Both the position numbers and the translations under genes were made by a program. A stretch of 64,000 bases of DNA from an uncultured Pelagibacteraceae bacterium (lineage in GTDB: Bacteria > Pseudomonadota > Alphaproteobacteria > Pelagibacterales > Pelagibacteraceae), in assembly GCA_902571375.1 (NCBI GenBank), contig CACGBP010000001.1, forward strand, positions 112,501 to 176,500, given 5' to 3'. Shown here piece by piece: positions 14,977 to 32,457 of the stretch. Position 1 is the stretch's first letter. Each line of letters begins with the position of its first letter. The notes under the pieces are model-generated. The model saw only the letters and a list, made by a program, of their open reading frames with translations, was not told the origin of the DNA and did not search any database.

Positions 14977-15463
14977 AAATAATAAAAAATATTTTGATAA
15001 AAGGGGTTTTTTTCAAGAAATTTTCTTAAAAAAAAAAATTAAAATAAATTTTGTATTTTCAGCTATTGCAAAATCAAAAAAAAATGTAATTAGAGGGCTT
15101 CATTTTCAAACAAAGAATAAACAAACAAAATTTATATATGTTATAGATGGTAAAATTTTAGATGTAGTGGTCAATTTAAATAAAAAATCTAAAAATTTTG
15201 GAAAAGTTAATAAATTTATTTTAAGAGAAGGTGATATTTTGATTGTACCAAATAAATATGCTCATGGTTATGAGTGTTTATCTAAAACATGTACCGTCTT
15301 GTATCATTTGGATGATTATAGAAATCCTAAAACAGAAAATGGTATTTTGTATAATGATAAAAAATTAAGAATTAAATGGATTACAAAAAAACCAATTTTA
15401 TCAATTAGAGACCAACATGGTAAATCATTTGATTTTTTTAAAGAAAGAATTAAATCCTTATAA
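14951..15463 (+). CDS. rmlC: dTDP-4-dehydrorhamnose 3,5-epimerase-like (RmlC)
   Basis: 170 residues, cupin fold. IRGLHFQ places the catalytic base at H51, and KFIYVIDGKILDVVVNL is the next RmlC strand. HGYECLSKTCTVLYHLDDY carries the conserved tyrosine (Y118 or Y123). WITKKPILSIRD matches the family C-terminus. It epimerises C3 and/or C5 of dTDP-4-keto-6-deoxyglucose. The start overlaps the RmlD-like gene by 26 nt, and its stop overlaps the end of the convergent GT2 gene by 6 nt. A mono-epimerase variant cannot be excluded. Confidence 0.75.
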   Translation: MLKNPIVFRNNKKYFDKRGFFQEIFLKKKIKINFVFSAIAKSKKNVIRGLHFQTKNKQTKFIYVIDGKILDVVVNLNKKSKNFGKVNKFILREGDILIVPNKYAHGYECLSKTCTVLYHLDDYRNPKTENGILYNDKKLRIKWITKKPILSIRDQHGKSFDFFKERIKSL

Positions 15464-16216: not shown

Positions 16217-16272
16217 GAATTTTTTTTAGAATAGTATAAAATTATCCATTAAAAAATGTTTATATTTAAAAA

Positions 16273-17433
16273 ATGAAATTATATTATTGGTCTCCTTTTT
16301 TTTCTAATATTGCAACTGAAAAGGCTGTTATTAACTCAATTGAGTCTATCAATAAATATTCAAATAATGAAATTTCTACATGCTTATTAGAAATCATAGG
16401 TGAATGGAGAAATCAAAAAGAAAATATTAATCAAAAAAAAATAAAAATTAAAAAATTATCAAATTTTAATCTAATTGATTTTTTGCCTAAATTTGGATTT
16501 ATAAAAAGTAGAATTTCATACTTTATCATTTTTTTATTTTCAATTATGAAACTTCATAGATTATTAAAATCAGACAAACCAGATTTTTTAGTTATTCATT
16601 TAATGACTTTTATACCTCTTATTTTATTATCAATTTTTAAATACGATACAAAATTTATTTTAAGGATTTCAGGATTTCCAAAGTTGAATTTTTTAAGATC
16701 CTTTTTCTGGAGGATTGTCGGAAAAAAAATTTTTCTTGTAACAACACCAACTAAATCAACTTTAAAAATTCTAATAGAGTCTAATATTTTTGATTCTGTG
16801 AAGGTAAAATATTTACCAGACCCAATATTAAATATTAAAGAAATTCAGAAAAAGAAAAAAGAGAATAACATTATTGAAAAAGAAATTTCCTCAAAAAATA
16901 CTTTAATATCTATAGGTAGACTCACTAAACAAAAAAACTTTAGATTCTTAATAAAAGTATTTAGTGAAATAAATATATTATATCCAAATTTAAATTTATG
17001 TATCATAGGAGATGGAGAGGATAAGCAAAAATTAATTGATGATATTAAAAAATACAAATTACAAAACAAAGTTTTTTTATTAGGATATAAAGTTAATATT
17101 TACGATTATTTGAAAAATTCACGCATATTAATTTTACCTTCTCTTTGGGAGGACCCAGGGTTTGTTTTAATTGAAGCAGGATACATGAACAAAACAATTT
17201 TATCTAGTGACTGTCCAAATAGCCCCCGTGAACTTCTAGATAATGGAAAAAATGGATTTATTTTTAAATCCAATAATTCTGAAAGTTTTTTAAGAACATT
17301 TAAAAATGTATATGACTCAGACAATAAAAGCTTATTATTGAAAAAAATTTCATACAAGAAAAAACTTAAAGAATTTACTCTTTTCAATCACTATAAAATT
17401 TTAAGTAAATTAATAAAAGGTTATGAAAATTAA
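16273..17433 (+). CDS. Glycosyltransferase family 4
   Basis: 386 residues, GT-B fold. The donor domain starts at ISIGRLTKQKNF (212-223) and has CIIGDGED (243-250). The E-x7-E motif is E293/E301 (LWEDPGFVLIEAG), followed by SPRELLDNGKNGFIF, the nucleotide-sugar phosphate region. It is a retaining transferase of unknown specificity. The next GT4 gene overlaps its 3' end by 11 nt, so the pair likely adds consecutive sugars. Confidence 0.85.
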   Translation: MKLYYWSPFFSNIATEKAVINSIESINKYSNNEISTCLLEIIGEWRNQKENINQKKIKIKKLSNFNLIDFLPKFGFIKSRISYFIIFLFSIMKLHRLLKSDKPDFLVIHLMTFIPLILLSIFKYDTKFILRISGFPKLNFLRSFFWRIVGKKIFLVTTPTKSTLKILIESNIFDSVKVKYLPDPILNIKEIQKKKKENNIIEKEISSKNTLISIGRLTKQKNFRFLIKVFSEINILYPNLNLCIIGDGEDKQKLIDDIKKYKLQNKVFLLGYKVNIYDYLKNSRILILPSLWEDPGFVLIEAGYMNKTILSSDCPNSPRELLDNGKNGFIFKSNNSESFLRTFKNVYDSDNKSLLLKKISYKKKLKEFTLFNHYKILSKLIKGYEN

Positions 17434-18526
17434 TATATTCTTTTTTATTTCAAGATTTACTTTTGGTGGAGCTGGTAATGCTATATTTACTTTTTTGAAT
17501 AATTTAGATCGTAAAAAATATAAATTACACATATTTTTCTTGGGAAACTCAGAATATGAAAAAATTTTACCAAAATATGTAAAGTATTATAAATTAAAGA
17601 TTAATTATAGAGTTTTTAAAACTTTTTTTTGTTTTTTTGAGATAAGAAAAATTTTGAATAAACAATCAAAAGAATTCCAAAAAAATATTTTTATTTCAAA
17701 TATTCATTACTCAAATGTTTTATCAATAATATTTTTAAAAAAAATTAAAAATTTAAAGTTAATTTTATTTGAAAGGACCTCGGTCAAGGAACTAGATATA
17801 TTTGAAAATGTATTTTCTTTCATTAAAAACAAGATAGTTAAATTCTTAATAGGTTTCACATATTCCAAAGCTGATGCTGTTTTGACTAATTCAAAAACTT
17901 CATCATTAGAATTAAGTAAATTTAATATTAAGTCAAAAGTAGTATATTCTGGGCCAATTCAAAGATTGCGTAAATTCAATAAAAAGAGAAAAAAATTATT
18001 ATTTTTTAATTTTATTGCCGTCGGTAGATTGTCTGCGCAAAAAGATTATTTAACTCTTTTAAAAGCAATTAATTTATTAGATTGCAAAAATTTTAGATTA
18101 AGTATTTTTGGTAGTGGTGAACTGAGAAAAAAAATAGAAAAATTTATAAAAAATAATAAATTAAATAAGTACGTTAAATTAAAAGGTCATGAAAAAGATA
18201 AAAAAAAGATTTATAAAAAAGCAGACTTGTTAATTCACACTGCAATATTTGAAGGAATGCCAAATGCAATAGTTGAAGCTATGAATTTTAGAGTTCCCGT
18301 AATTGCAGCTGATAGTCCCGGAGGAACAAGAGAATTATTAGAATCTGGTAAATATGGACAACTCTTTGAACCACAAAATCATATAGAGTTATCAAAAAAG
18401 ATTGAAGACTTTATTTTGAATCCTGAAAAATTAAATAAAAAAATTATGAATTCCAAATGGATTTTAAAAAAATTTACACATAAAAGTTCAACTAAAAGTT
18501 TAGAAAAAATACTTAACAGTATATAA
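17423..18526 (+). CDS. Glycosyltransferase family 4
   Basis: 367 residues. An N-terminal FGGAGN loop (14-19) contacts the acceptor side. The donor side has AVGRLSAQKDY (199-209), IFGSGELR, E277/E285 in FEGMPNAIVEAM, and DSPGGTRELLESGKYGQLF. These are textbook GT4 signatures with all key residues present. It overlaps the preceding GT4 by 11 nt and is followed 22 nt later by an FkbM methyltransferase gene. Confidence 0.88.
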   Translation: MKINIFFFISRFTFGGAGNAIFTFLNNLDRKKYKLHIFFLGNSEYEKILPKYVKYYKLKINYRVFKTFFCFFEIRKILNKQSKEFQKNIFISNIHYSNVLSIIFLKKIKNLKLILFERTSVKELDIFENVFSFIKNKIVKFLIGFTYSKADAVLTNSKTSSLELSKFNIKSKVVYSGPIQRLRKFNKKRKKLLFFNFIAVGRLSAQKDYLTLLKAINLLDCKNFRLSIFGSGELRKKIEKFIKNNKLNKYVKLKGHEKDKKKIYKKADLLIHTAIFEGMPNAIVEAMNFRVPVIAADSPGGTRELLESGKYGQLFEPQNHIELSKKIEDFILNPEKLNKKIMNSKWILKKFTHKSSTKSLEKILNSI

Positions 18527-18548
18527 GATATTTGATTAAATAAATTTA

Positions 18549-19331
18549 ATGAATTATTTAGTAAAAATTTTTTCGAAAAAAAAATTTGATTTTTTGAGAA
18601 AACTACTACTTCACCTTTGTTTAAAAATTTCTGGGTATAAAAATTTTGGCAATTTTTTTGAAACAGGAGAAAACTTTGTATTTGAATTAATTAAAATTCA
18701 TAAAGTTAAAAATTGTCTAGACATCGGAGCTCATACTGGAGCTTTTTCTAAAAAAATACTAGCTATAAAAAATACAAAAGTAATTGCTTTCGAGCCAATG
18801 AAACACTCATACCTAAAATTGAAAAAAATAGAAGTTGAAAATAGAGAAAATTTTAAATGTTTTAATATTGCTTTATCAAATCAAAAAAAAATTTCAGAAA
18901 TATATTTTACTAATTCTCAATCTCAATTAGCTTCAGTAAATTTCAATTTAAACAATATAAATTTTTTAAGAAAAAAAAAATTACAAAAACAAAAAATTAA
19001 AACTGAAACTTTAGATAGTTTTGAGGCCAAACATAAGAATTTATTTTTGAAAAAAATTGATTATATCAAAATTGACACTGAGGGGCATGATTATAAAGTT
19101 TTACTTGGAGCTAAAAAATTTTTAAAAAAACATAAACCAAAATTTATACAATTTGAGATGAATTATCATTATTTATTTTCAGGAGAAAATTTATATCAAT
19201 TTACAGTCTTATTGAAAAATTATAATTTATTTCAAATCATGCCATATAACAATGGATTGCTTAAAATAGATGCATCTCGCCCAGAAAACAACATATTTCA
19301 TTTGTCAAACTTCATTTTTATTAAAAAATGA
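18549..19331 (+). CDS. FkbM-family SAM-dependent methyltransferase
   Basis: 260 residues. SAM motif I is CLDIGAHTGAFS (56-67), the acidic loop AFEPMKHSY (80-88), and the family hallmark IKIDTEGHDYKVLLGA (173-188). FkbM proteins methylate hydroxyls on sugars and polyketides. The gene follows two GT4 genes and overlaps murC by 4 nt (ATGA), so the surface-glycan run passes into murC with no break. Methylation of a terminal sugar is the likely role. Confidence 0.85.
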   Translation: MNYLVKIFSKKKFDFLRKLLLHLCLKISGYKNFGNFFETGENFVFELIKIHKVKNCLDIGAHTGAFSKKILAIKNTKVIAFEPMKHSYLKLKKIEVENRENFKCFNIALSNQKKISEIYFTNSQSQLASVNFNLNNINFLRKKKLQKQKIKTETLDSFEAKHKNLFLKKIDYIKIDTEGHDYKVLLGAKKFLKKHKPKFIQFEMNYHYLFSGENLYQFTVLLKNYNLFQIMPYNNGLLKIDASRPENNIFHLSNFIFIKK

Positions 19332-20722
19332 AAATAGAATTAGCTAAAGAAGAAACAATACATTTCATAGGAATTGGTGGCATAGGCATGAGTGGCCTTT
19401 CTTTAATTATGAAAGGCAAAGGTTTTAAAATCCAAGGAAGTGATATTGTAATTAATAAAAATATTGAGAGATTAAAAAAAGAAAAAATAAAAATTTTTAT
19501 TGGTCAAAAAAAGCAAAATTTAAGAGATGCAACTATTGTTGTCATTTCATCAGCAATTAAAAATAATAACCCTGAATTAATTGAGGCAAAAAAAAAGAAA
19601 ATTCCAATAATATCTAGAGGTAAAATGCTTGCTCATATTGTTTCATTGATGAAAAATATTGTTGTTACTGGTTCACATGGCAAAACTACTACCACATCTT
19701 TAATTGCATCGATATTTCAAAAAACTAACTTAGACCCTACAATTATAAATGGTGGAGTTATTAACTCTCTTAAAAGTACAGTAAAATTGGGACGTAGTGA
19801 TTGGTCAATTTTAGAGGCAGATGAATCAGATGGAAGTTTTATTCATGTGCCTTCAACATACTCCATAATTACAAATATTGATCGTGAGCACATGGATTTC
19901 TACCAATCTATGGATCAATTAAAACAATACTTTGTTAACTTCATTAATAAAGTTCCATCATTTGGAAAAGTATTCATTTGTTTAGATGATAGAATTAACT
20001 ACAACTTAATAAAAAAAATCAAAAATCATAATTTTTATACCTATGGTTTAAATGATAAATCTAATTTTTGTATTAGGAATTTAAAACAGGAAAAAACTTT
20101 TACTCAATTTGATTTATCAATAAAGTTAACTAATAAAAAAAAATTTTTAGTAAAAAAAATAAAAATACCTTTGTTGGGTGTTCATAATGTTAGAAACTCT
20201 GTTGCAGCTATAGGAGTAGCGCTTACAGTAGGTATTTCAATTAAAGTTATTAAAAAAGGACTATCAAGTTTTAAAGGCGTACAAAGAAGATTTAATAAGA
20301 TTTTTACCCACAACCAGATTGATTATTATGATGATTACGCTCATCATCCTACAGAGATAAAATTTGTTTTGGATGGTTTAAAGAAAGTTTATAAGGATTA
20401 TGAAAAAATTTGTATTTTTCAACCACACAGAATCTCTAGATTAAAGGATCTTAGAAAGGAATTTTCTTATTCGTTTTCAGATGCAGATACAGTCATTTTA
20501 TGTCCAATTTTTACCGCAGGTGAAAAAATGAATTTGGGATTCAGTTATAATTCATTTGCTAGAGAAATTATCAAAAACTCAAAGGTAAAAGTTTTTTTAG
20601 TAAATGATAATATTGAATTAGCAAAATTTTTAAAATATCTAAGCGGAAAAAAAATAGTTGTTGGAATGGGTGCAGGCACCATTTCCAATTGGATGAGACA
20701 ACTACCAAAATTAATGAAATGA
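19328..20722 (+). CDS. murC: UDP-N-acetylmuramate-L-alanine ligase
   Basis: 464 residues, full length. HFIGIGGIGMSGLSL (12-26) is the UDP-binding loop, TGSHGKTTTTSL (114-125) the ATP P-loop, and YDDYAHHPTEI the C-terminal domain motif of Mur ligases. LEADESDGSF carries the metal-binding acidic pair. The enzyme adds L-alanine to UDP-MurNAc in the cytoplasm, the first step of the stem peptide. It overlaps the FkbM gene by 4 nt and murB by 4 nt. Its place inside a surface-glycan island is unusual; a second copy elsewhere in the genome cannot be ruled out. Confidence 0.93.
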   Translation: MKIELAKEETIHFIGIGGIGMSGLSLIMKGKGFKIQGSDIVINKNIERLKKEKIKIFIGQKKQNLRDATIVVISSAIKNNNPELIEAKKKKIPIISRGKMLAHIVSLMKNIVVTGSHGKTTTTSLIASIFQKTNLDPTIINGGVINSLKSTVKLGRSDWSILEADESDGSFIHVPSTYSIITNIDREHMDFYQSMDQLKQYFVNFINKVPSFGKVFICLDDRINYNLIKKIKNHNFYTYGLNDKSNFCIRNLKQEKTFTQFDLSIKLTNKKKFLVKKIKIPLLGVHNVRNSVAAIGVALTVGISIKVIKKGLSSFKGVQRRFNKIFTHNQIDYYDDYAHHPTEIKFVLDGLKKVYKDYEKICIFQPHRISRLKDLRKEFSYSFSDADTVILCPIFTAGEKMNLGFSYNSFAREIIKNSKVKVFLVNDNIELAKFLKYLSGKKIVVGMGAGTISNWMRQLPKLMK

Positions 20723-21627
20723 AAACAGAATATTTGAAAAATTTATTTGATACATTTGGTGAGAATATAAAATTTGATTATAATTTAAAAAAAAGAACAT
20801 GGTTTAATATTGGAGGGAAAACAAAAATTTTTTATAAGGCAGAAAGTTTAAAAAATTTAGTAAATTTCTTAAAAAAAATTAATGATAAAGAAAAAATATT
20901 TATTTTAGGTGCTGGTTCTAACACTTTAATCTCAGATGAATTATTTGATGGTGTTGTTGTAAAATTAGGAAAATCTTTTAATAACATATCTCTTCTAGGT
21001 GAAGATCTTATAATTGCAGGTAGTGCTGTTTCAGATAAAACTTTGTCAGATTTTGCAATTAATAATAGTTTAAGTGGTTTTGAATTTTTATCAGGTATAC
21101 CAGGTACTGTTGGAGGTGGTATTAAAATGAATGCAGGATGTTTTGGAAGTGAGTTTAAAGATATATTAATTTCTGTTCAAGCTGTAGATAAAAAAGGGAA
21201 TATTATAACAATTCCAAAAAAAGATATTAATTTCGAATATAGAAACAACAATCTTTCTAATGACTTAATTTTTTTAAGTGCTTCTTTTAAAGGAGTTAAA
21301 GCTGACTTAAACGATATCAAAAATAAGACTATAAGACTAAGAAATGAAAAAGAAAGAAATCAACCCAATAGGATAAAAACAAGTGGTAGTACTTTTAAAA
21401 ATCCGATCTCACAAACAAATAAAAAAGTTTGGGAATTAATTAAGCAGTCTGTACCTTTAGACAAGAGTTTTGGAGATGCGTGTATTTCAGAAAAACACTG
21501 TAATTTTTTTGTTAATAAAGGAAATGCAACATTTAAAGATATGAAAGACTTGATTAATTTTGTGACTGATAATGTTTACAAAAAAACTGGTATAAAGTTA
21601 GAAAAAGAAATTAAAATTTTAGAATAA
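20719..21627 (+). CDS. murB: UDP-N-acetylenolpyruvoylglucosamine reductase
   Basis: 302 residues from the ATG at 20719, chosen because it forms an ATGA overlap with the murC stop; an in-frame TTG 30 nt upstream is less likely. FAD-binding LGAGSNTLISDE (63-74) and SGIPGTVGGGIKMNAGCFG (125-143) are clear. The catalytic region has EYR with R175 and SGSTFKNP (222-229) with S224 as proton donor. Near the C-terminus, IKLEKEIKIL supplies the conserved glutamate. MurB reduces UDP-GlcNAc-enolpyruvate to UDP-MurNAc with NADPH. Confidence 0.93.
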   Translation: MKTEYLKNLFDTFGENIKFDYNLKKRTWFNIGGKTKIFYKAESLKNLVNFLKKINDKEKIFILGAGSNTLISDELFDGVVVKLGKSFNNISLLGEDLIIAGSAVSDKTLSDFAINNSLSGFEFLSGIPGTVGGGIKMNAGCFGSEFKDILISVQAVDKKGNIITIPKKDINFEYRNNNLSNDLIFLSASFKGVKADLNDIKNKTIRLRNEKERNQPNRIKTSGSTFKNPISQTNKKVWELIKQSVPLDKSFGDACISEKHCNFFVNKGNATFKDMKDLINFVTDNVYKKTGIKLEKEIKILE

Positions 21628-21628
21628 T

Positions 21629-22693
21629 TTGAATAAAAAAATCTTAATTGCAACTGGTGGATCAGGTGGACATATAATGCCAGCACTTGTTTTTTATAAT
21701 ATATTTAATAAAAAATTTAAATCTTTTATCTCATCAGATTCTAGAGGTTTGAATTATTTGAATACAAAAAAATATAATCCTAAAGTTTTCAAAACTCCTC
21801 AAATTTCTAATAGTTACCTTTTATTTCCTTTTAAAATAATTTTCATTCTATATCTTATAATTCAATCTATAATTTTTTTAAAAAAAAACAAAATTGATAT
21901 TGTTTTTTCAACTGGTGGATATGCTCCGACCCCATTATGTGTTGCAAGTTTAATTTTGAAAAAAAAGTTATATATTTACGAACCTAATCATGTCATTGGA
22001 AAATCAAATAAATTTTTTTTACCTTATTGTAACAAAATTTTTTGTCATTCATACAAAATTAAATTATTTCCTAAAAAATTTAAAAATAAAATAGTTTTAA
22101 TAGCGCCAATAGTTAGAGATATTTTTAAAAAAAAAAGAATTAATCCTATTAAAGGATTAAATTTAATGATTATTGGTGGAAGTCAAGGTGCAAGAATTTT
22201 TAATAAAAATTTTCATCAAATTATTTTTGAATTATCTAAGAAATTAAACTTGAAAATTATTCATCAGACAGATGTAAAAAACATTAAATTTTTGAAAAGT
22301 TTTTATAATAAATGTAATATAAAAAATAAAGTTTTCAGTTATGATAATAATTTTTTTGAATTAATTAAAAGATGTAATTTTTGTATTACAAGAGGAGGCT
22401 CCTCAACATTAGCTGAATTATTTGTATTAAGAATACCTTTTTTAGTAATTCCTTTAAAAAATTCAAAAGATAATCATCAGTTAGAAAATGCAAAATTTTA
22501 TAAAGATAAAAATTGCTGCTGGATTTTAGATGAAAGTAATCTTGATAAAAAAAAACTTTATCATGAATTGAGCAATATTCTTTTGAATAAAAAAAAATTT
22601 ACTAGTAAAAAAAAATCATTAAATAACCTGAATCACAATATAGATTGGAACAAACAAAAAAAACTTATTTTAAAGGAATTAAATGAAAATTAA
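21629..22693 (+). CDS. murG: UDP-GlcNAc:MurNAc-pentapeptide-undecaprenol GlcNAc transferase
   Basis: 354 residues with a TTG start 1 nt after the murB stop. GGSGGHIMPAL (10-20) is the glycine loop with H15, IIGGSQGARIFN is the second G-loop, and ITRGGSSTLAEL followed by PLKNSKDNHQLENA forms the UDP-GlcNAc pocket. MurG makes lipid II on the inner face of the membrane. Its 3' end overlaps a GT2 gene by 11 nt, tying it to glycan genes and not to ftsW or murD as in a usual dcw cluster. Confidence 0.9.
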   Translation: MNKKILIATGGSGGHIMPALVFYNIFNKKFKSFISSDSRGLNYLNTKKYNPKVFKTPQISNSYLLFPFKIIFILYLIIQSIIFLKKNKIDIVFSTGGYAPTPLCVASLILKKKLYIYEPNHVIGKSNKFFLPYCNKIFCHSYKIKLFPKKFKNKIVLIAPIVRDIFKKKRINPIKGLNLMIIGGSQGARIFNKNFHQIIFELSKKLNLKIIHQTDVKNIKFLKSFYNKCNIKNKVFSYDNNFFELIKRCNFCITRGGSSTLAELFVLRIPFLVIPLKNSKDNHQLENAKFYKDKNCCWILDESNLDKKKLYHELSNILLNKKKFTSKKKSLNNLNHNIDWNKQKKLILKELNEN

Positions 22694-23426
22694 AATTAGT
22701 GTTATAATCCCATTTTATGATAATTTTAAACTTTTAAAAAAAGCAATATATTCTGTAAAAAGTCAATCTTTTAAAAATTATGAATTGATTATCATTTATG
22801 ACAATCCTGATGATAAGGAAAATATAAAATTACTTAAAGAATTTGTAAAAAAAAAAAAAATTAAGGTTTTAATTAATAATAAAAATCTTGGTGCCGGCTT
22901 ATCAAGAAATAAAGGTATTAGGAAAGCAAAAGGTGAATTTATCGCCTTCTTGGATAGTGATGACATATGGAAAAAAAATAAGCTTCGAATTCAATACGAC
23001 TACATGAAAAAAAATAATTTACTTATATCACATACCTCTTATGATCTTTTCGATGAGAATAATAAATTTTTACAAAAACGTTTAGCAAGAAAATTAAATT
23101 ATTTTGATTTATTAAATTCATGCGATATAGGCCTTTCCACTGTAATGGTAAAAAAAAAATTAATTTTAAAACATAAATTATTTCCAAGTCTTAAAACAAA
23201 AGAAGATTATGTATTGTGGCTTAAAATTTCAAAAAGTGGAATTCTATTTTATGGAATAAAAAAAGTTTTAACTAATTGGACTGATAGAAAAAATTCTTTA
23301 TCAAAATCCTCTTTCCAAAAAATCAAAGATGCATTTAAAGTATACTATAAATATGAAAAATTTAATTTTTTAGACTCTATATTTAAAGTAATAATTTTAT
23401 CAATTAATTTTTTAAGAAAAAAGTAA
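22683..23426 (+). CDS. Glycosyltransferase family 2 containing an A14 tract
   Basis: 247 residues, GT-A fold. SVIIPFYDNFKLLKKAI starts the fold, LIIIYDNPDD (35-44) gives the first acidic cluster, and FIAFLDSDDIW (86-96) contains the DxD. LKTKEDYVLWLKI is the typical ED motif of the catalytic base. It overlaps murG by 11 nt and the WecA-like gene by 1 nt. A run of 14 adenines encodes KKKK at 56-59 and could cause slippage. The sugar is unknown. Confidence 0.83.
   Translation: MKIKISVIIPFYDNFKLLKKAIYSVKSQSFKNYELIIIYDNPDDKENIKLLKEFVKKKKIKVLINNKNLGAGLSRNKGIRKAKGEFIAFLDSDDIWKKNKLRIQYDYMKKNNLLISHTSYDLFDENNKFLQKRLARKLNYFDLLNSCDIGLSTVMVKKKLILKHKLFPSLKTKEDYVLWLKISKSGILFYGIKKVLTNWTDRKNSLSKSSFQKIKDAFKVYYKYEKFNFLDSIFKVIILSINFLRKK
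22847..22860 (+). repeat. A14 homopolymer inside a GT2 gene
   Basis: Fourteen consecutive adenines run from the last base of a GTA codon through four AAA codons into ATT. Loss or gain of one A would truncate the glycosyltransferase early. It is the longest A run I noticed in the surface genes, though pgk has one almost as long. Confidence 0.9.
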
Positions 23427-24433
23427 TGCAATATTTAATTTCATATTCATATTTATTGATAATTTTTTTAATCTGTAGATATATTTTTAAAAATTTAAAA
23501 AGCAAATTTTATAAAAAACACCAAAAATTTGCTGGTAGACAATCAATTCCTCTTATTGGGGGGATAATTTTTTTTATTTATATCAGCTTAAATTTTGAAT
23601 ATTTCAATGAATATATTTTGTTCTTTTCATTACTAATTCTTTGTTTGGGAATTTCATCTGATTGTGATTTCATAAATTCACCTAAAATTAGATTGATTTT
23701 ACAATCATCACTAATTATTATTTTTGTTGATATTCTTAATTTAAATATTCTTGATTTAAGAAATGATTTTTTAAATAATTTAATATCTAATTATTATTTT
23801 AATGTATTTTTTATAACATTTTGCTTATTAGTTTTAATAAATGGTTCTAATTTTATTGATGGTCTTGATGGGTTAAATTTAGGATATTTTTTGTCTATTG
23901 TGATTATAATATTAATACTTAGTCAATCTTCAAAAATAATTATTAACAAAAATCAAATAATGATTTTATTTTATGCTATGTCTTTTTTATTTATATTAAA
24001 TTTATTAAATCTTTTATACTTGGGTGACTCAGGATCTTATTTGATTGGTTATCTATTTGGCTATTTCTTAATAGAGATAAATAGTTCAAATCCACTTATA
24101 TCTCCATATTTTATAGCTTTATTACTTTGGTATCCTGCATTTGAAAATTTATTTTCCATTATAAGAAAAAAAATTATAAAATTAGATCCTTTAGATGCAG
24201 ACAATTTACATTTTCATCAATTATTATTTTATTTTTTAAAAAGAAAAAAAAATAATTTCATAAAAAATTTTTCTAATCCAATCTCATCTGTAATTATAAA
24301 CCTCTATAATTTTTCAATTTTTTTTATAGGTTTATCGTATTTTTCACACACAAAATCTTTGTTATTTTTAATTTTATTTAATGTAACTATTTATTTATTT
24401 TTTTATTTTTTACTAAAAAAAAAATTATATTGA
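23426..24433 (+). CDS. WecA/MraY-like polyprenyl-phosphate sugar-1-phosphate transferase
   Basis: 335 residues with about ten membrane helices. QKFAGRQSIPLIGGI (33-47) matches the early cytoplasmic loop of the family. GISSDCDF (75-82) stands where the DD motif is usual. NGSNFIDGLDGLN (139-151) and YLGDSGSY (198-205) hold the catalytic aspartates, and DADNLHFHQL (257-266) gives the HxH motif. Such enzymes start lipid-linked glycans by moving a sugar-phosphate to undecaprenyl phosphate. Its stop overlaps the convergent ligase gene by 9 nt. Confidence 0.85.
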   Translation: MQYLISYSYLLIIFLICRYIFKNLKSKFYKKHQKFAGRQSIPLIGGIIFFIYISLNFEYFNEYILFFSLLILCLGISSDCDFINSPKIRLILQSSLIIIFVDILNLNILDLRNDFLNNLISNYYFNVFFITFCLLVLINGSNFIDGLDGLNLGYFLSIVIIILILSQSSKIIINKNQIMILFYAMSFLFILNLLNLLYLGDSGSYLIGYLFGYFLIEINSSNPLISPYFIALLLWYPAFENLFSIIRKKIIKLDPLDADNLHFHQLLFYFLKRKKNNFIKNFSNPISSVIINLYNFSIFFIGLSYFSHTKSLLFLILFNVTIYLFFYFLLKKKLY

Positions 24434-25669
24434 TTTATTGTTTTTTGCTAAAATTGCAAAATTAAGCCAAAATAAAGTAGCTCCGTAGGTTGTAAAAAAA
24501 CTTCCACTTGGAATAAAAGGAATTAAAGTAACAAAAACAAATAAAATACCAGAAAATTTATAAAAATCATTTTTTTTAAAAAAAGATCTTATTGAAAAAA
24601 ATAGACTTTGAAAAATAACATAAAAAAAACAAAAATATCCAAATAGACCTAATTCCGCTAAAAATTCAAAATGTATCTGATGTGGGTGAACAGATGCATT
24701 TTTAGCATAAACATTCTTTGAAGACTCTGGTGCATAATTTCTTATTCCAACACCAAAAAATTTATTTCTGTTAAAAACTTCTAATGCAGCTTTATAGTGA
24801 TCTCCATAAGGCGGTATAAATAAAGTTTCAATAGGATTTTTGATCAATGGATTTAAAAAGGTAATCCAAAATCGTTGTTTGAATCTTTCATTATTTAGTA
24901 CCAAACTGGTAAAAATTATCCCGCAAATTAATAAGATTGAAATAGTAGCTTTTAAATTTTTTTTTAAAAATAATATGAATATTACAAAAATAAATAAAAC
25001 TCTAACGAAATTCGCCCTCTCTCCAATTAAAAAAGAAGTAATCAGAAAAATAGCTGCCAAACAAAAAAAGATAAATTCTTTTAAAAATTTTTTATCATTG
25101 ATATTTTTATAATTATTTAGAAAATTATTTATTGTGATTAACACAATTAAGATAAATGCAGAATAAAAGTGACCAATTTTCATTTCATCTTTAAAAAAGC
25201 CTACAAGTCTTCCAGTCAATTCCGCTTTAAAACCAAAAATATTTTGTCCTAATATATATTCAATAATTAGATCAAATGAAACAAACAAAAAAATTATAGT
25301 CCAAATTTTAAAAACTTTATTAGAGTAATAATTTTCTTTTATTTCAAAAATATATTTAATTGCAAAAACAAAAAATATAAATCTTAAAAAACCAACTGAT
25401 CTTAAAATAGAATTAGAGGGATCAACACTAAAAAAAAATAAGTTAATCATAAAAGTAGCCCAAAGAAAAATTAAAAGATAAAAAAAGATATTATTTAAGA
25501 ACTTTAATTTTTTTGTTCTGTAAATTTCAATTAAAAATAAAAGATCTATAATTATTATAGTTATGTTTAACAAACCAGATCCTAAAAAAATGATGATCGG
25601 TAGTATTGAAATAATAAAAAAGGATAATGTTTCTAATATGTTATTCTTATAATATTCGATTTTATACAT
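24425..25669 (-). CDS. O-antigen ligase/polymerase-like membrane protein (Wzy/WaaL)
   Basis: 414 residues with roughly eleven membrane helices. A large periplasmic loop near the C-terminal third contains FGVGIRNY and then HPHQIHFEFLAELG, the conserved region of the O-antigen ligase (Wzy_C) superfamily, where the His and Arg residues are catalytic. It would polymerise or ligate lipid-linked glycan on the outer face of the inner membrane. It overlaps the upstream GT2 gene by 8 nt on the minus strand. Ligase versus polymerase cannot be separated by sequence alone. Confidence 0.78.
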   Translation of the reverse strand: MYKIEYYKNNILETLSFFIISILPIIIFLGSGLLNITIIIIDLLFLIEIYRTKKLKFLNNIFFYLLIFLWATFMINLFFFSVDPSNSILRSVGFLRFIFFVFAIKYIFEIKENYYSNKVFKIWTIIFLFVSFDLIIEYILGQNIFGFKAELTGRLVGFFKDEMKIGHFYSAFILIVLITINNFLNNYKNINDKKFLKEFIFFCLAAIFLITSFLIGERANFVRVLFIFVIFILFLKKNLKATISILLICGIIFTSLVLNNERFKQRFWITFLNPLIKNPIETLFIPPYGDHYKAALEVFNRNKFFGVGIRNYAPESSKNVYAKNASVHPHQIHFEFLAELGLFGYFCFFYVIFQSLFFSIRSFFKKNDFYKFSGILFVFVTLIPFIPSGSFFTTYGATLFWLNFAILAKNNKSI

Positions 25670-26336
25670 TTTTAAAAAACAATTTCACCATACTATATAA
25701 AATCTTTAAACCATCTCTAAATTCGTTTACTTTTTTTTCACCTGCTATTCGTTTAAACTCAACAGAACTCGATGATTTTATTAACATTTTATTTCTAACT
25801 GCTTTTATTGGTAATTCGACACAAAAAGCAAAATTTTTTGATTTCAATTTTAGTTTTTTAGCTTTTTGGGCTTTACCCAAGACAAAAGTATAAAGGATAT
25901 CAGTTATAGGTAATTTAAAAAAAATTTGTCCAATTTTAGTGAAAAAAAAATTTCCAATATAAGTTAAAGCTGTATCATCATGGCTATAAGCATTTTTTTG
26001 ATATCTTGATCCAAATATAAAATCTAATTTTTTAGAATTTAAAATCCTTTTCATTTTAGTGATTTCAGAAATTTTAAAAGAACCATCTGCGTTAAATATG
26101 CAGAAAAATTCTGTTTTACAATTATTAATTCCTTTAATTAGTGCATCCCCATAACCTAGATTGTTTTGAAATACAATTTTCACTTTAAATGGCTTTATTG
26201 AATTAATAGTTTTTAAATCAGATTTATGTAAAACGACCATAATTTTGAAATCATACTTTTTAAGCTTTTTAAGAACCAATGGAAGCGACTCAGACTCGTC
26301 TTTTGCAGGAATTATCAAAGTTATATTTTTCATCAT
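25662..26336 (-). CDS. Glycosyltransferase family 2 (polyprenyl-phosphate type)
   Basis: 224 residues. ITLIIPAKDESESLPLVL is the start of DPM1-like GT2 enzymes, NLGYGDALIKGI is the K/R-G loop, and FCIFNADGSF contains a D-G-S in place of the usual DADxQ. FIFGSRYQ is a further family motif. Such proteins often make polyprenyl-phosphate-linked sugars used by periplasmic transferases; the large membrane protein on the other strand could be a user. Divergent from that gene, with 61 nt between. Confidence 0.75.
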   Translation of the reverse strand: MMKNITLIIPAKDESESLPLVLKKLKKYDFKIMVVLHKSDLKTINSIKPFKVKIVFQNNLGYGDALIKGINNCKTEFFCIFNADGSFKISEITKMKRILNSKKLDFIFGSRYQKNAYSHDDTALTYIGNFFFTKIGQIFFKLPITDILYTFVLGKAQKAKKLKLKSKNFAFCVELPIKAVRNKMLIKSSSSVEFKRIAGEKKVNEFRDGLKILYSMVKLFFKNV

Positions 26337-26397
26337 TTAAATAAAAATTTTGTTTAAATATACTCACTATTAATTTAATTATAGTTATTAATTAATA

Positions 26398-28047
26398 ATG
26401 TCATTAAACTTTTTTATATTTTTCACTTATTATTTTATTATTTTAGTATCTATAGTTGGATATGGATCCGTTTTTTTGAGTTTTGAGAAAAAAAATAAAT
26501 CTGAATATAATCTTGGTGTTATTGGTTTAGTTGGAATATTTTTTTTAATTGTTTATTCGTATTTAAGCAATATTTTTATACCTCATTCTAAAATACATAA
26601 TTTTTTAATTATCTTTTTCGGATTTTTATTTTTTCTCTACTATATTTATAAAAATCATCATAAGAGAAATTTAAAAAATAATTTGCTTTTATTTTTTCTT
26701 ATATTCTTAGCATTATTTATATCATTACTAATTGAAAAAAATCATGATGATTTTCCTTATTATCATTTTGCCTATACATATAATCTAACACAAGACAGTC
26801 TTAATTTTGGAATTGGAAAGCTGAATCATGGATTTAGGACACCGTCATCAATTTTTTATCTCAATTCATTATTTTATTTGCCCTTTGCAGAATACTATTT
26901 ATTTAATTTTTCTGCTGTCTTTATATTGGGTTTTTCAAATATTATTTTGTTAAAAAAAATTAGTAATTTTTTTGAGAATTTCAAAATGAAAAGTATGGAA
27001 ATTAACTTCTCAAATTATTTGGCATTATTGTCATTTATTTTTATAAATATTTTTTTTTACAGAATATCTGAACATGGCACAGATAGATCAGCACAGATTT
27101 TAATTTTTTTATTATTCATTTATCTATTTGAAATGTTCGAAAATAAAAATAATGAAAAAATAGATCTATTTTTTATTTCAATTTTATTTACACTTATTAT
27201 TTCTTTAAAATCTTTCTATTTTTTATACATGTTATTGTTTATTCCTTTGTTTTATTTTTTTTTACAAAAAAATAATAATTTATCTTTAACTTTAAGATTA
27301 TTTTTTACAAAAAATTATTCATTTTATTCAACTTTGTTAATTTTATTAATTTTACTTTCATATTTTGTAAATACAGGGTGTTTACTTTATCCAATTTCAT
27401 TTACATGTTTTGAAAATTTTGCATGGTCAATACCAATCGATAGTGTAAAAAAAATGAATGATTGGTATGAGTTGTGGTCTAAATCTGGTGCTAATCCAAA
27501 TTATAGAGTTTCTAATCCCGAGGAATATATAATTGGTTTAAATTGGGTTTCAAATTGGATCCAGAATTATTTTTTTTATAAAGTGTCAGATTTTATATTA
27601 GGTTTAATTTCAATTCTTTTGATTTTTTGGATAATAATTAGAAATTTTAAGAAAAAGAAAAAAAAATTAATAATAAATAAATTTTCAAAATATTTATATC
27701 TGGTATTAATATTGATTTTTATTGAATGGTTCTTAAATCATCCAGCTTTGAGGTATGGAGGCTTTTCTGTTATTGCGCTTTTAATTTTTATTCCTTTTTC
27801 ATTTTATCTAAACAAATTTAGTCTTAATTATTCCCAATTTAATCGAATTTCGGTAGTGCTAGTTTGTTTGACGACACTTATTTTTGAAGCTAGAAATTTA
27901 AATAGGATTGTTAAGGAAGTAAAAATATATAATTATAAGCCTTTTATTGAAACATATTACAAAATTGATAAAAACTATTTTTCAATCCAAAAAAAAATAG
28001 ATAACTTAAAAAATGAAGATGGTCCATTATCTAAAACTATTTTTTAG
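26398..28047 (+). CDS. Multi-pass membrane protein, putative GT-C-like
   Basis: 549 residues with about twelve hydrophobic helices. After a cluster of N-terminal helices comes a loop beginning EKNHDDFPYYHF, where acidic residues after an early helix recall the catalytic Asp of GT-C fold glycosyltransferases, then LNHGFRTPSSIFYLNSLFYLPF and a conserved-looking NHPALRYGG near the C-terminus. That layout is shared with large hypothetical membrane proteins of polysaccharide loci. A polyprenyl-phosphate-sugar-dependent transferase is a reasonable inference; I do not recognise a specific family. Confidence 0.5.
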   Translation: MSLNFFIFFTYYFIILVSIVGYGSVFLSFEKKNKSEYNLGVIGLVGIFFLIVYSYLSNIFIPHSKIHNFLIIFFGFLFFLYYIYKNHHKRNLKNNLLLFFLIFLALFISLLIEKNHDDFPYYHFAYTYNLTQDSLNFGIGKLNHGFRTPSSIFYLNSLFYLPFAEYYLFNFSAVFILGFSNIILLKKISNFFENFKMKSMEINFSNYLALLSFIFINIFFYRISEHGTDRSAQILIFLLFIYLFEMFENKNNEKIDLFFISILFTLIISLKSFYFLYMLLFIPLFYFFLQKNNNLSLTLRLFFTKNYSFYSTLLILLILLSYFVNTGCLLYPISFTCFENFAWSIPIDSVKKMNDWYELWSKSGANPNYRVSNPEEYIIGLNWVSNWIQNYFFYKVSDFILGLISILLIFWIIIRNFKKKKKKLIINKFSKYLYLVLILIFIEWFLNHPALRYGGFSVIALLIFIPFSFYLNKFSLNYSQFNRISVVLVCLTTLIFEARNLNRIVKEVKIYNYKPFIETYYKIDKNYFSIQKKIDNLKNEDGPLSKTIF

Positions 28048-28083
28048 ATTTTATTTCAACTGAAATTAGTGTAATAAATTTTT

Positions 28084-29133
28084 ATGGCGAAAAAAATTGC
28101 ACTTATATTTGGTATAACTGGTCAAGATGGATCTTACTTAGCAGACTTTTTGTTAAGAAAAAAATATACTGTTCATGGAGTAAAAAGAAGATCGTCATCA
28201 TTCAACACAGCTAGAATTGACCACATTTATCAAGATCCACACGAAAGTAAGAAAAATTTTATACTTCATTATGGAGATGTAACCGACTCTTCTTCTGTTT
28301 CACAAATAATAAAAAATGTGAGACCCAATGAAATTTATAATCTTGCAGCACAGTCACATGTTGCAGTTTCATTTGAAGTACCAGAGTATACTGCTAATGC
28401 AGATGGATTGGGAGTTTTAAGAATTTTAGAGGCAATTAAATTTCATAAGTTGGAGAGTTATACAAAATTTTATCAAGCCGGAACCTCTGAGATGTATGGT
28501 GAAGTCCAGCAAATCCCACAAACTGAAAAAACTGAATTTTATCCTTTAAGTCCATATGGTGTTGCAAAATTATACGGTCACTGGATTACAAAAAATTATA
28601 GAGAGGCCTATAACATATTTGCTTGTAATGGAATATTATTTAATCATGAAAGTCCCAGAAGAGGTGAGACGTTTGTAACAAAAAAAATAATCAGGGGCCT
28701 TGTAAGAATTAAGTACGGTTATGATAAAAAGTTGTATTTAGGGAATTTAGATGCCAAAAGGGATTGGGGTCATGCGAAAGATTATGTAGAGGCCATGTGG
28801 AAAATTTTACAACAAAAAAAACCAGAGGATTATGTAATTGCCACCGGTAAACAATATAGTATTAGAAAATTTGTAAATATAGTTTGTCAGAAATTAGGAT
28901 TTAGAATTGTTTGGAGAGGTAAAGGCTTAAATGAAAAAGCATTTGATAAGAAAGATAAAAAAACCATTATTGAAGTTGATAAAAAATATTTTAGACCTTT
29001 AGATGTTAATACATTATTAGGAAAAGCGACCAAAGCAAGAAAAAAACTTAACTGGAAACCAAAGTATAATCTCAATTCATTAATAGATGAAATGATTGGG
29101 GAAGAGATTAAACAAATAAATGAAAATAAATAA
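28084..29133 (+). CDS. gmd: GDP-mannose 4,6-dehydratase
   Basis: 349 residues, full length. [10 protein letters not shown] (10-19) is the NADP loop, [17 protein letters not shown] (33-49) the Gmd-specific 2'-phosphate region, GTSEMYGE (133-140) the catalytic Ser/Thr and Glu, and Y158/K162 (SPYGVAK) the Tyr-x3-Lys pair. [13 protein letters not shown] is also family-specific. It makes GDP-4-keto-6-deoxymannose. Its end overlaps fcl by 14 nt. The mannose-supplying genes are not in this window. Confidence 0.95.
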
Positions 29134-30058
29134 GAACTCCAAAATTTTCATTGCTGGACACAATGGAATGGTAGGCTCAGCAATTAAAAAAAAATTTATA
29201 GAAAAAGGTTTTAAAAAAATCATTACTGTAAACAAAAAAAAATTAAACCTTATTGATCAACTTAAGGTATTTAATTTTTTAAAGAAAAAAAAGCCTGATT
29301 TAGTTATATTGGCTGCAGCAAAAGTTGGAGGAATTGTTGCAAACAGTTTATATAAAGAGAGTTTTATTTATGAAAATTTGCAAATTCAAAATAATATAAT
29401 ACATGGATCTTACAAAGCTGGAATTAAAGATTTAATATTTTTAGGCTCAAGCTGCATTTACCCAAAATTTTCTAGACAACCAATCAAAGAAAAATATATT
29501 TTGACTGGAGCACTAGAAGAAACAAATGATGCTTATGCAATTGCAAAAATTGCTGGTATAATAATGTGTAATAATTACAGCAAGAATTATAAATTAAATT
29601 ATAAATGTTTAATGCCATCCAATATGTATGGACCAAATGATAATTATGATCTTCAAAATTCCCATTTTTTTGCAGCATTAATAAGAAAAATACATGAAGC
29701 TAAAACTTTAAAAAAAAAATCTGTAAAAGTTTGGGGTAGTGGAAAAGTATTAAGAGAACTTTTGTTTGTAGATGATTTTGCTGATGCAGTTTACTTTTTT
29801 TTAAATAAAAAAATCAAGGAGTCATTTATTAATATTGGCTCAGGTCAAGATTATACAATTGAATGGTATACAAAATTTATAATGAAACAAATGGGTGTGC
29901 AGTTAAGGATTGATTATGATAAGTCTAAACCAGACGGTGTGCCAAAAAAATTACTTGATGTAAGTTTAGCAAAAAAATATGGGTGGAAAAGTAAAACGTC
30001 TTTAAGAGAAGGTCTTATTCAGACTTTAGAAGATTTTGAGTTAGGTTATAGGACATGA
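29120..30058 (+). CDS. fcl: GDP-L-fucose synthase
   Basis: 312 residues. [11 protein letters not shown] (12-22) is the NADP loop, [10 protein letters not shown] (108-117) the catalytic serine strand, and Y139/K143 (YAIAK) the catalytic pair. [12 protein letters not shown] and [12 protein letters not shown] are characteristic of Fcl/WcaG. It epimerises and reduces the Gmd product to GDP-L-fucose. Overlap with gmd by 14 nt and with the next SDR gene by 4 nt suggests one operon delivering fucose to a local glycosyltransferase. Confidence 0.95.
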
Positions 30059-30951
30059 AAAAAAATAATATTGTAATTACAGGAGGTGCTGGATTTGTTG
30101 GATCAAACCTTATTGAATTTTTTTTAAAAAAAACCAAATATAAAATTTTAAGTATTGACAATTACTCTTCTGGAACAATTAAAAATCATATCCGAAACAG
30201 AAGGGTAAGTTATATAAAAGGTGAAACAAAAAATATTCATAAAATATTAAATTCAAAAAAAAAGGTTATAAATTCTGTATTTCATTTTGGTGAATTTTCT
30301 AGAATTTATCAAAGCTTTCTTAAAATGAACGAGTGTATTGACTCAAATACTATTGGAACAAATGCGGTTTTTAGTTTTTGTTTAAAAAATAAAATTAAAT
30401 TGATTTATTCAGCAACATCAGCCTCAATTGGCAATAGAGGTAATGATAAAAACTTATCTCCGTATGCTTTCACGAAAGCTAAAAATTTAGAGTTACTTGA
30501 TAATTTAAAAAAATGGTTCAACTTTAAATTTGAAATTTTGTACTTTTATAATGTTTATGGTCCTAAACAAATCTCAATTGGAAATATGGCTACAGTGATT
30601 GGTATTTTTGAGGATCTTTATAAAAAAAAAAAGCCTTTAACTGTAGTTAAACCTGGAACGCAGAGTAGAAGATTTACACATATAGATGATACCATTAATG
30701 CATGTTATAAAGCATGGAGACTAAATAAATGTAGACATTATAGCATTACAAGTAAAACTAGTTACACTATTTTAGAAGTTGCAAAATTATTTAATTCAAA
30801 AATTAAAATGGTACCTTCAAGGAGAGGTGAGAGATTTGCATCAGCTTTAACTAATATGAATTTATCAAACAAAGTATATAAAATATATGGTAAAATTAGT
30901 CTTTCAGATTATATAAAAAACATCCTAAAAAGCTTAAGAAAATCAAGTTAA
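30055..30951 (+). CDS. NAD-dependent nucleotide-sugar epimerase (GalE-like SDR)
   Basis: 298 residues. ITGGAGFVGSNLIEF (8-22) is the NAD loop. LIYSATSASIGN supplies the Ser/Thr strand and Y137/K141 (SPYAFTK) the catalytic pair. FYNVYGPKQ and RRFTHIDD are extended-SDR motifs. It is shorter than classical GalE (about 335 residues), so a UDP- or GDP-sugar epimerase or dehydratase of unknown specificity is the safest call. It is the last surface gene before the 5S promoter. Confidence 0.8.
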   Translation: MKKNNIVITGGAGFVGSNLIEFFLKKTKYKILSIDNYSSGTIKNHIRNRRVSYIKGETKNIHKILNSKKKVINSVFHFGEFSRIYQSFLKMNECIDSNTIGTNAVFSFCLKNKIKLIYSATSASIGNRGNDKNLSPYAFTKAKNLELLDNLKKWFNFKFEILYFYNVYGPKQISIGNMATVIGIFEDLYKKKKPLTVVKPGTQSRRFTHIDDTINACYKAWRLNKCRHYSITSKTSYTILEVAKLFNSKIKMVPSRRGERFASALTNMNLSNKVYKIYGKISLSDYIKNILKSLRKSS

Positions 30952-30958
30952 TTGATTG

Positions 30959-30986
30959 TTTACATTATTTTAATTTCAAGTATAAA
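30959..30986 (+). promoter_or_regulatory. Sigma-70-type promoter driving the 5S gene
   Basis: TTTACA (30959-30964) and TATAAA (30981-30986) are separated by 16 bp and lie in the 39-bp gap after the last surface gene. Transcription would begin at or within a few bases of the predicted 5S 5' end at 30991. The placement fits a 5S gene that is no longer part of the 16S-23S transcript. Confidence 0.6.
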
Positions 30987-30990
30987 TCTC

Positions 30991-31108
30991 ATGCCGGTGA
31001 TTACTGCGAAGGGGTTATACCCGATCCCATTCCGAACTCGGAAGTCAAGCCCTTCTGCGCCGATGGTACTTTGTCTTAAGACATGGAAGAGTAGGACTTT
31101 GCCGGCAT
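30991..31108 (+). rRNA. rrf: 5S ribosomal RNA, detached from 16S-23S
   Basis: About 118 nt. The 5' ATGCCGG and 3' CCGGCAT ends pair perfectly as helix I. Conserved internal 5S sequences are present: CCCGATCCCATTCCGAACTC, followed by GAAGTCAAG in the loop B/helix III region, and CGATGGTACT in loop E/helix IV. The ends are inferred from helix I. No tRNA or 23S lies within 30 kb on the left, and the next gene is rpmJ 9 nt away. Confidence 0.93.
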
Positions 31109-31368: not shown

Positions 31369-32457
31369 ATGAAGATAGCATCAATTTCAGAAGACAAAAA
31401 TATTGAGAAACGAGTTTCGATTACTCCAGAAATTGCAAAGAAATATTTGTCGAATGGATTTGAGGTTTCTCTCAGTAAAAATTATGGTGTTCATTTAGGA
31501 TTTAGCAATCAAGAATATGAGTCTATAGGAGTAAAGCTAGCTGAAAATAATAAAGACGTAATTAAAGATAGTGATATTGTAACTCAATTAGGTCTTCCAA
31601 CAGATGAAAATCTTTCACATTTTCATGAAAATCAAATTTTAATTGGAGTTCTTAATCCTTATTTAAATAAAAATAAATTAGATGAGCTAAATAAAAAAAA
31701 AATAAATATGTTCTCATTGGAATTATTACCCAGAATTACACGAGCACAGTCAATGGATATACTTTCATCTCAAGCAAATTTAGCTGGATACAAAGCGGTA
31801 GTAGAGTCTTTTGCATATTTTCAAAAAGCTATTCCAATGATGATGACAGCAGCAGGAACGATCCCTGCAGCAAAAGTTTTAGTTGTTGGTGCTGGTGTTG
31901 CAGGTCTTCAAGCAATTGCAACTGCTAAAAGAATGGGGGCAATTGTTTTTGCTACTGATGTAAGAATTGCTTCAAAAGAGCAGGTTGAAAGTTTAGGTGG
32001 AAAATTTTTAATGGTGGAGGGATCTGAAAATCTTGAAACAGAGGGTGGATATGCAAAAGAAACATCAGATGATTTTAAAAAAAAACAAGAGGAACTTTTA
32101 GCAGAAACATTGAAAAAAATTGATATTGTTATTTGTACTGCTTTAATACCAGGAAAAAAAGCTCCAATTATTATTAAAGCTGAAATGATTAAGAATATGC
32201 AGTCGGGTTCTGTGATCTATGATTTAGCTGCTATCCAGGGAGGCAATACCTCATTAACTAAAGTTAATCAAATTATAGATGATAATGGCGTGAAAATTAT
32301 GGGTGAAACAAATATTTTAAATAAACTACCAACTTCAGCATCGAATCTTTATGCAAAAAATGTATTTAACTTCATTACTAATCTATATGATAATAAAGAA
32401 AAAAAGATTAATATTAATTTAGAAGATGAAATAATAGAGAAAACACTTATTAAATAG
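31369..32457 (+). CDS. pntAA: NAD(P)+ transhydrogenase alpha subunit, part 1
   Basis: 362 residues. This is the soluble NAD(H)-binding domain I: EKRVSITPEIAKKY at the N-terminus, SMDILSSQANLAGY (the RQD-loop region), and the Rossmann motif VLVVGAGVAGLQAIATAKRMGA. The alpha subunit is split from its membrane part, the usual alphaproteobacterial arrangement. With pntAB and pntB it forms the proton-translocating transhydrogenase that makes NADPH from NADH. The gap to pntAB is 2 nt. Confidence 0.94.
   Translation: MKIASISEDKNIEKRVSITPEIAKKYLSNGFEVSLSKNYGVHLGFSNQEYESIGVKLAENNKDVIKDSDIVTQLGLPTDENLSHFHENQILIGVLNPYLNKNKLDELNKKKINMFSLELLPRITRAQSMDILSSQANLAGYKAVVESFAYFQKAIPMMMTAAGTIPAAKVLVVGAGVAGLQAIATAKRMGAIVFATDVRIASKEQVESLGGKFLMVEGSENLETEGGYAKETSDDFKKKQEELLAETLKKIDIVICTALIPGKKAPIIIKAEMIKNMQSGSVIYDLAAIQGGNTSLTKVNQIIDDNGVKIMGETNILNKLPTSASNLYAKNVFNFITNLYDNKEKKININLEDEIIEKTLIK

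Follow-up and report, generated by a model that had tools for sequence, protein, structure and literature searches.

A 5S rRNA gene set apart from 16S-23S by a surface-glycan island has its own predicted, conserved promoter in Pelagibacteraceae

The window, by which we mean the whole 64-kb stretch of DNA analyzed here (C1:112501-176500 of the source assembly, which has 24 contigs and is 86% complete), contained a complete 5S rRNA gene, while an Rfam search of the same 64 kb recovered neither 16S nor 23S. This copy was the single 5S match in the assembly, in which the stretch from 23S to the window is partly masked. Three same-strand genes were located to its right (Table 1): rpmJ, with its start codon 10 nt 3′ of the 5S, a 36-aa frame, and pntA, which served as the right-hand marker for retrieving relatives. 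An Rfam match to RF01810, the 'pntA sRNA' (31245-31306), overlapped the start of the 36-aa frame. The frame was present in 73 of 81 loci and of equal length in 69, across which codon-position entropy (0.33/0.09/0.82) followed a coding pattern, and it had no NCBIfam match; RF01810 may be a misread coding sequence.

Table 1. Features of the 5S locus (positions in the window).
Feature	Position	Strand	Evidence
Surface-glycan island (HVR2), between 23S (left of the window) and 5S	17..30951	both	ORF scan
-35 hexamer, TTTACA	30959..30964	+	sequence and family conservation
Spacer, 16 nt, sequence little conserved	30965..30980	+	family comparison
-10 hexamer, TATAAA	30981..30986	+	sequence and family conservation
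Discriminator, -10 to predicted start	30987..30992	+	length and G+C across family
Predicted transcription start, first nt of 5S helix I (G)	30993	+	geometry only
5S rRNA gene, complete, not truncated	30993..31107	+	Rfam RF00001, 85.9 bits, model 1-120
rpmJ, type B ribosomal protein L36, 41 aa	31118..31243	+	PF00444 8e-17; NF002021 7.9e-22
COX4_pro_2 small protein (aa3-type cytochrome oxidase subunit IV), 36 aa	31249..31359	+	PF07835 1.4e-11
pntA, transhydrogenase alpha subunit	31369..32457	+	PF05222 and PF01262

The 10 island ORFs that we scanned comprised NeuB, an ABC transporter, two glycosyltransferases, a Mur ligase, a GDP-mannose dehydratase, two epimerases, an Oxidored_FMN protein, and one with a weak CitMHS match. 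Both epimerase ORFs were located immediately 5′ of the 5S, the last of which (PF01370 epimerase family) ended at position 30951. Blocks of minus-strand ORFs (6162-11226, 15458-16216, and 24425-26336) make read-through from the rRNA operon to the 5S unlikely. Left of the window, 16S (C1:106413-107887) and 23S (starting at C1:108295, with the final detected piece ending at C1:109982) were on the same contig and strand as the 5S (C1:143493), and ~33 kb separated the last 23S piece from it. The original prediction, made from the sequence of the window, had placed a complete 5S gene at least 30 kb from any 23S to its left and directly after a surface-glycan island, and both points were borne out.

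The PntA of the window was 81% identical to that of a Pelagibacterales SAG, and every title among the best 80 named PntA loci of 235 relatives was Pelagibacterales or Pelagibacteraceae, on which basis we identify the locus as SAR11 HVR2. It has the features of an HVR2-type split operon, namely a lone 5S tens of kb from 23S, polysaccharide genes between the two, and a Pelagibacteraceae host. The arrangement of a linked operon, in which no more than a few hundred nt separate 23S from 5S, was found neither in the source genome nor in 23 other genomes of the family, all of which had ~19 kb or more between the genes.

Indeed, 23S and 5S were separated in all 24 family genomes for which both could be placed on one contig. 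The distance from the 23S marker to the 5S was 18.8-57.8 kb, on the same strand, in 19 genomes that had both on one contig, 61.9 kb in G003, 57.5 kb from the 23S start in G005, and ~83 kb in G016. The exact marker was detected in 71 of 197 family genomes, the source genome being among those missed, and 20 of the 71 (the 19 and G003) carried a listed 5S alongside it on that contig, whereas the others had theirs on another contig or had none; the LSU search missed 9 of 16, and rows without 23S were not counted as absence of the gene. A second 5S directly after 23S, named beforehand as one observation that would count against the original prediction, was absent from 20 of 20 flanks of relatives, ~2 kb each (with 801 masked bases in L206), and from 11 single-contig family genomes that had exactly one 5S match apiece; the source genome is masked at that position. 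Second 5S matches in G010 and G048 were weak, at 30-53 bits, and came from other contigs. Viewed from the 5S, no 23S end was detected upstream in any of 54 named loci with at least 3 kb of upstream sequence. An apparent 23S end 8.1 kb from the 5S of L050 proved on inspection to be a chance match inside coding sequence.

One genome, G051, was an exception in layout, in that 23S and 5S were ~437 kb apart and on opposite strands, with island genes beside the 5S, which was still preceded by TTTACA and TATAAC. This represents either a relocation or an assembly join. Among 806 islands delimited elsewhere with 16S-23S and 5S as markers, genomospecies Ib.4 is described as having a moved island and a 5S located elsewhere (PMC11898729); in the available text of that study the Ib.4 island stays with 23S, hence the G051 layout need not be the same. 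The right-hand marker varied as well. In the complete genome G005 (C1:231385-304780), 5S, an epimerase, and rpmJ were together, but pntA was found among core genes 72 kb beyond them. Not every genome of the family therefore pairs rpmJ with pntA, and rpmJ is the safer marker.

Within the gap between the last epimerase ORF and the 5S, which spans 41 nt if the 5S is taken to start where Rfam places it and 39 nt with the start originally read, we confirmed the TTTACA-16-TATAAA pair reported in the original prediction. The predicted start is the seventh nt after the -10 hexamer, and usual promoter spacing would thus begin the RNA at the G with which helix I begins. A lone promoter-like match in AT-rich sequence is weak evidence, since loose matches were no more frequent than in shuffled sequence (55 versus 66.8 sites per 10 kb); the loose scan omitted the 5S promoter itself, the sixth -10 base of which is A. 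The strict pattern TTKACW-N16/17-TATAA occurred just twice on the two strands of the window (30959, plus; 58763, minus). What makes the case for a promoter strong is conservation across the family, not the single sequence.

This conservation was assessed in a set drawn from four sources: the window itself; 30 loci, the top scorers from the 152 matching genomes; those 75 loci, out of 80 named ones retrieved via the PntA protein, that contained a 5S (L045, L051, L075, L078, and L101 had none in the retrieved DNA); and 20 further loci that include two repeats. The set totaled 126 loci, 125 with 110 nt upstream, and 122 distinct sequences after removal of L001 (the source genome again), L031 (short upstream sequence), and three duplicates, two of them the same genomes retrieved twice (G040 and G002). 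Near relatives remain among the 122, which are not independent, and loci were best-scoring or hand-chosen rather than randomly drawn. With the -10 hexamer required to end 3-7 nt 5′ of the 5S, and scoring out of 12 hexamer bases, 118 of the 122 sequences had a -35/-10 pair matching at 9 or more bases and 97 had one matching at 10 or more, versus 19-32 and 1-9 of 122, respectively, at five other offsets in the same sequences. Four sequences reached just 8/12, and loci from genera g5, g6, and g7 scored 8-9.

The most common -35 variants were TTTACA (69 of 122), TTTACT (18), and TTGACT (15), and those of the -10 were TATAAA (42), TATAAG (23), and TATAAC (18). Spacers were 16 nt in 55 and 17 nt in 57 sequences (together 112/122), and the discriminator was 5 or 6 nt in 106/122. 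Mean pairwise identity was 0.81 for the -35 and 0.78 for the -10, values that are inflated because the hexamers were chosen by match, versus 0.36 for the 30 nt upstream and 0.41 for the spacer. When sequences were aligned on the 5S start alone, with no choice of hexamers, relative entropy was 0.74, 1.00, and 0.88 bits at positions -34, -33, and -30 and at most 0.25 bits over -70 to -36. G+C content across the family was 40% in the discriminator, 22% upstream, and 14% in the spacer, although the discriminator was not conserved in sequence (identity of 0.31 over its first 4 nt). A G+C-rich discriminator recalls growth-rate-controlled promoters. Collectively, the elements have the properties of a sigma-70-type promoter, that is, -35 and -10 boxes at 16-17 nt, a fixed distance to the 5S, and conservation relative to flanking sequence. 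The upstream alignment across SAR11 therefore agrees with the original prediction of a promoter aimed at the 5S start: a putative promoter so directed is conserved in this family, and we predict it to be active.

A second difference from a conventional rRNA operon concerned 5S processing. We scored a processing stem as a duplex between the 30-nt flanks of the 5S of -12 kcal/mol or lower, and found one in 1 of 127 family rows (repeats among them, and the palindromic contig L067 counted twice), in 18 of 20 loci from the sister family, that is, the second family of the same order, and in 29 of 35 loci from elsewhere in the class. The flanks of the window 5S gave -5.2 kcal/mol and had no extended stem by this measure. 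The 23S 3′ tail was near-identical in 20 of 20 relatives, with divergence immediately beyond it, and a duplex of the relatives' tail with sequence flanking the 5′ side of the source-genome 23S reached -34.9 kcal/mol, so the 23S processing stem has been kept. Upstream of 16S, a CTTG -35-like core was found in 19 of 19 aligned loci (the source genome and 18 relatives; 2 of 21 loci yielded no 16S start), with a -10 that varied among genera.

The 16S leader of two of these loci, L215 and L216, contained exact GCTCTTTAA, which we take to be boxA-like, and related sequence was present in the other aligned loci. Having no leader, the 5S unit could not share rRNA antitermination. Past the 23S tail, five loci of one genus (L202, L205, L208, L211, and L212) had GTTCAA-N-TTGAAC palindromes preceding a small ORF, which in L211 (1616-1966) encodes a MarR family EPS-associated regulator (TIGR04176, 2.1e-39), perhaps the island's own.

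To the right of the 5S, the next same-strand ORF began 7-58 nt away in all 126 family loci (a total that includes repeats), with a median of 11 nt and a distance of 28 nt or less in 123. This ORF was rpmJ in 84 loci and of epimerase type in the other 42; in the six epimerase-type genomes that were checked, rpmJ followed ~0.9-1.0 kb after the 5S. Such a gap leaves scant space for a promoter outside the 5S gene, which points to a 5S-mRNA transcript from which the 5S would be released by a 3′ cut. From this geometry we predict that the 5S and the next ORF, either rpmJ or epimerase, share one mixed rRNA/mRNA transcript, with the caveats that a nearby downstream gene is no proof of co-transcription and that 6 of 126 gaps contain a run of five T.

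The state outside Pelagibacteraceae was different. In the sister family, where a 5S match was obtained from 20 of the 30 genomes sampled, the 5S was 231-239 nt past the 23S 3′-end motif in 20 of 20 loci, and in two genomes 89 and 96 nt separated the 23S end from the 5S. A promoter at the 5S reached at least 9/12 in 1 of 20 sister-family loci and at least 10/12 in none. Among 35 loci drawn from 34 of 51 other class genomes, all 51 of which had a 5S match, the corresponding counts were 3 and 1, and the 23S motif was 172-424 nt upstream of the 5S in 28. Three of the seven loci without the motif (L160, L168, and L184) were at contig edges, and three (L159, L174, and L187) retained strong stems, and their 5S may yet be part of an operon. 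In the seventh, L175, from a 0.6 Mb genome (G243), no 23S motif was detected within 6 kb and the stem was weak (-8.2 kcal/mol); this may be an independent unlinking of 5S in another family of the class. Because the sister family and most class loci have kept them, 23S-5S linkage and the stem most likely represent the ancestral state, as judged from these comparisons, and the promoter, the separation, and the loss of the stem coincide in one family, the Pelagibacteraceae.

The sister family nevertheless shares the broader layout. Nine of its 20 genomes had 5S, rpmJ, and pntA on one contig and one strand, in the order 23S-joined 5S, 34-78 kb, rpmJ, ~1.8-2.1 kb, pntA. Six proteins right of the 5S in one sister-family genome, G208, were a GDP-mannose dehydratase/epimerase, a DegT aminotransferase, an Asn-synthase type protein, a glycosyltransferase, a sugar transferase, and Polysacc_synt_2, with ~8 kb of other ORFs between these glycan genes and rpmJ. 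Both families have the order rRNA operon, island, rpmJ (the glycan genes of the sister family being those of one genome), and differ in the side of the island that holds the 5S. In the wider class, pntA was found in 17 of 20 genomes searched and shared a contig with a listed 5S in 10, the nearest pair being ~60 kb apart (G238) and all others >150 kb. As no searched class genome had pntA beside the 5S, the rRNA-island-rpmJ slot looks specific to this order.

How the 5S came to the right border of the island can be read in two ways. In the first, to which we give even odds, the island was ancestrally located between the rRNA operon and rpmJ, and the 5S moved across it and gained a promoter, or, in a variant, a 5S copy arose before rpmJ and the original was lost. 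The nine sister-family genomes with an intervening stretch, glycan-type in G208, would then retain the older arrangement, and the position of the SAR11 5S just before rpmJ, or before an epimerase with rpmJ a little beyond in the six genomes checked, fits as well, as does the distance between rRNA and pntA in the class genomes searched. Against this, no genome had two 5S copies flanking the island, the second matches in G010 and G048 being weak and on other contigs; islands could have entered one slot twice; and the other ORFs before rpmJ in G208, as well as the remote pntA of G005, depart from the shared layout.

The second way starts from an ancestral 23S-5S-rpmJ cluster that received an island in each family, in one of them splitting 23S from 5S, as the original prediction has it, and in the other splitting 5S from rpmJ. 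We consider this a credible reading, if one that falls somewhat short of an even chance. It accounts for the adjacency of 5S and rpmJ in SAR11 and for rpmJ near the operon in both families, and the available text of PMC3815206 speaks of an insertion, yet it requires two independent island captures at one locus, and no island-free genome of either family was present among those examined. A single change of side is somewhat more economical than two insertions, given that pntA was beside the 5S in no class genome searched. The further claim of the original prediction, that insertion of the island forced the 5S to gain a promoter, was not established: in the one family all 24 genomes with both genes placed showed separation and 118 of 122 sequences had the promoter at 9/12 or better, the sister family has neither, and none of the genomes examined had an intermediate layout that would fix the order of events.

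Independent of its origin, we propose that the Pelagibacteraceae 5S is a transcription unit of its own, with a probability of roughly 0.87. A sigma-70-type promoter at a fixed distance would start the RNA at the first nt of 5S helix I, so that the 5′ end of 5S would come from initiation in place of nuclease cleavage, the 5S-flanking processing stem of the ancestral operon having been lost. Transcription would then continue into the gene ~11 nt after the 5S, either rpmJ or an epimerase followed by rpmJ, with the 3′ end of the 5S being cut out of the 5S-mRNA transcript, while 16S-23S would remain under a separate promoter and would keep the stem for processing 23S. The glycan island would have a functional border at either end, the 23S stem on its left and the 5S promoter on its right, and could vary without touching rRNA expression. 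More tentative, and in our estimation a little less probable than not, is the conjunction of a 5S that is a primary transcript, that acts as leader of the L36 message, that has its level set by this promoter, and that changed sides across an ancestral island.

The promoter could alternatively serve mainly the downstream rpmJ or epimerase, with 5S supplied by read-through from the rRNA operon. The short distance from 5S to the next ORF in all 126 loci does suggest that one promoter probably serves both, but it keeps to a set distance from the beginning of the 5S (discriminator of 5-6 nt in 106/122), island ORFs are on both strands, the 5S processing stem of the operon has been lost, and G051 kept its promoter boxes with 23S on the other strand ~437 kb away, all of which makes this alternative highly improbable. 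That the boxes are chance promoter-like sequence in AT-rich DNA, as the unexceptional density of loose matches might suggest, is refuted as a general explanation by the position-specific conservation in 118 of 122 sequences relative to same-sequence offset controls and the sister family, and we give it almost no weight.

If the 5S is indeed a primary transcript, ribosomes of these bacteria would carry 5S with the initiating (tri)phosphate, or a trimmed form thereof. Bacterial rRNA stoichiometry is usually secured by a single transcript, and it follows logically from separate promoters, as predicted here, that 5S stoichiometry would be freed from a shared one. In SAR11, whose cells rank with the most abundant in the ocean, two promoters seem to have taken the place of this one transcript. 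The proposed arrangement also suggests why a variable glycan region can sit harmlessly in an rRNA locus, as both of its borders would be self-contained rRNA elements. Cultured SAR11 strains exist, in which the 5′ end of 5S, the ratio of 5S to 23S, and any coupling with rpmJ are directly measurable.

In the canonical bacterial 16S-23S-5S operon, 5S is cut from a precursor (the 9S RNA of E. coli). The linkage and stem of that operon are kept by the sister family and most class loci and are both absent in Pelagibacteraceae. Mycoplasma bovoculi, presumably of a different phylum from SAR11, offers a parallel. Like SAR11, it has a single 5S outside its 16S-23S operon and a small AT-rich genome; unlike for SAR11 here, no information on a 5S promoter is given in the text examined (PMC3931370). 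Broken operons are likewise reported in Pirellula, Buchnera, Wolbachia, Helicobacter, Thermus, and Thermoplasma, and breakage in symbionts has been linked with reduced, AT-rich genomes, although in the portion of that account available the break in Wolbachia and Helicobacter is between 16S and 23S-5S, rather than between 23S and 5S as in SAR11, and in Thermoplasma all three genes are apart; SAR11 and Pelagibacter have no occurrences in it (PMC7761764).

Within SAR11, the original prediction was right in recalling that HVR2 had been reported between 23S and 5S. In HTCC1062, 5S was described in 2007 as split from 16S-23S by a surface-polysaccharide region, under the term 'split ribosomal RNA operons' (PMC2217521), and the same split is found in other SAR11 genomes (PMC3815206, PMC4053759, PMC6018831, and PMC11898729). 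The accessible portions of these accounts treat the same locus and the same split and cover layout and diversity only: the word 'promoter' is absent from PMC2217521, PMC11898729, PMC2704228, PMC3815206, and PMC4053759, and its sole use in the available text of PMC6018831 concerns another operon, not 5S. Our search, outside which most subscription literature fell, recovered no published account of a SAR11 5S promoter, and for 5S promoters of other bacteria it found nothing on point. As far as the literature was searched, then, the 23S-5S split has been known since 2007, and a 5S promoter directed at the mature end, the loss of the stem, the placement of 5S as a putative leader of rpmJ, and the possible change of side are undescribed. 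To the HVR2 literature the present analysis adds the predicted start-site geometry, the loss of the stem, the putative rpmJ leader arrangement, and the state of the sister family.
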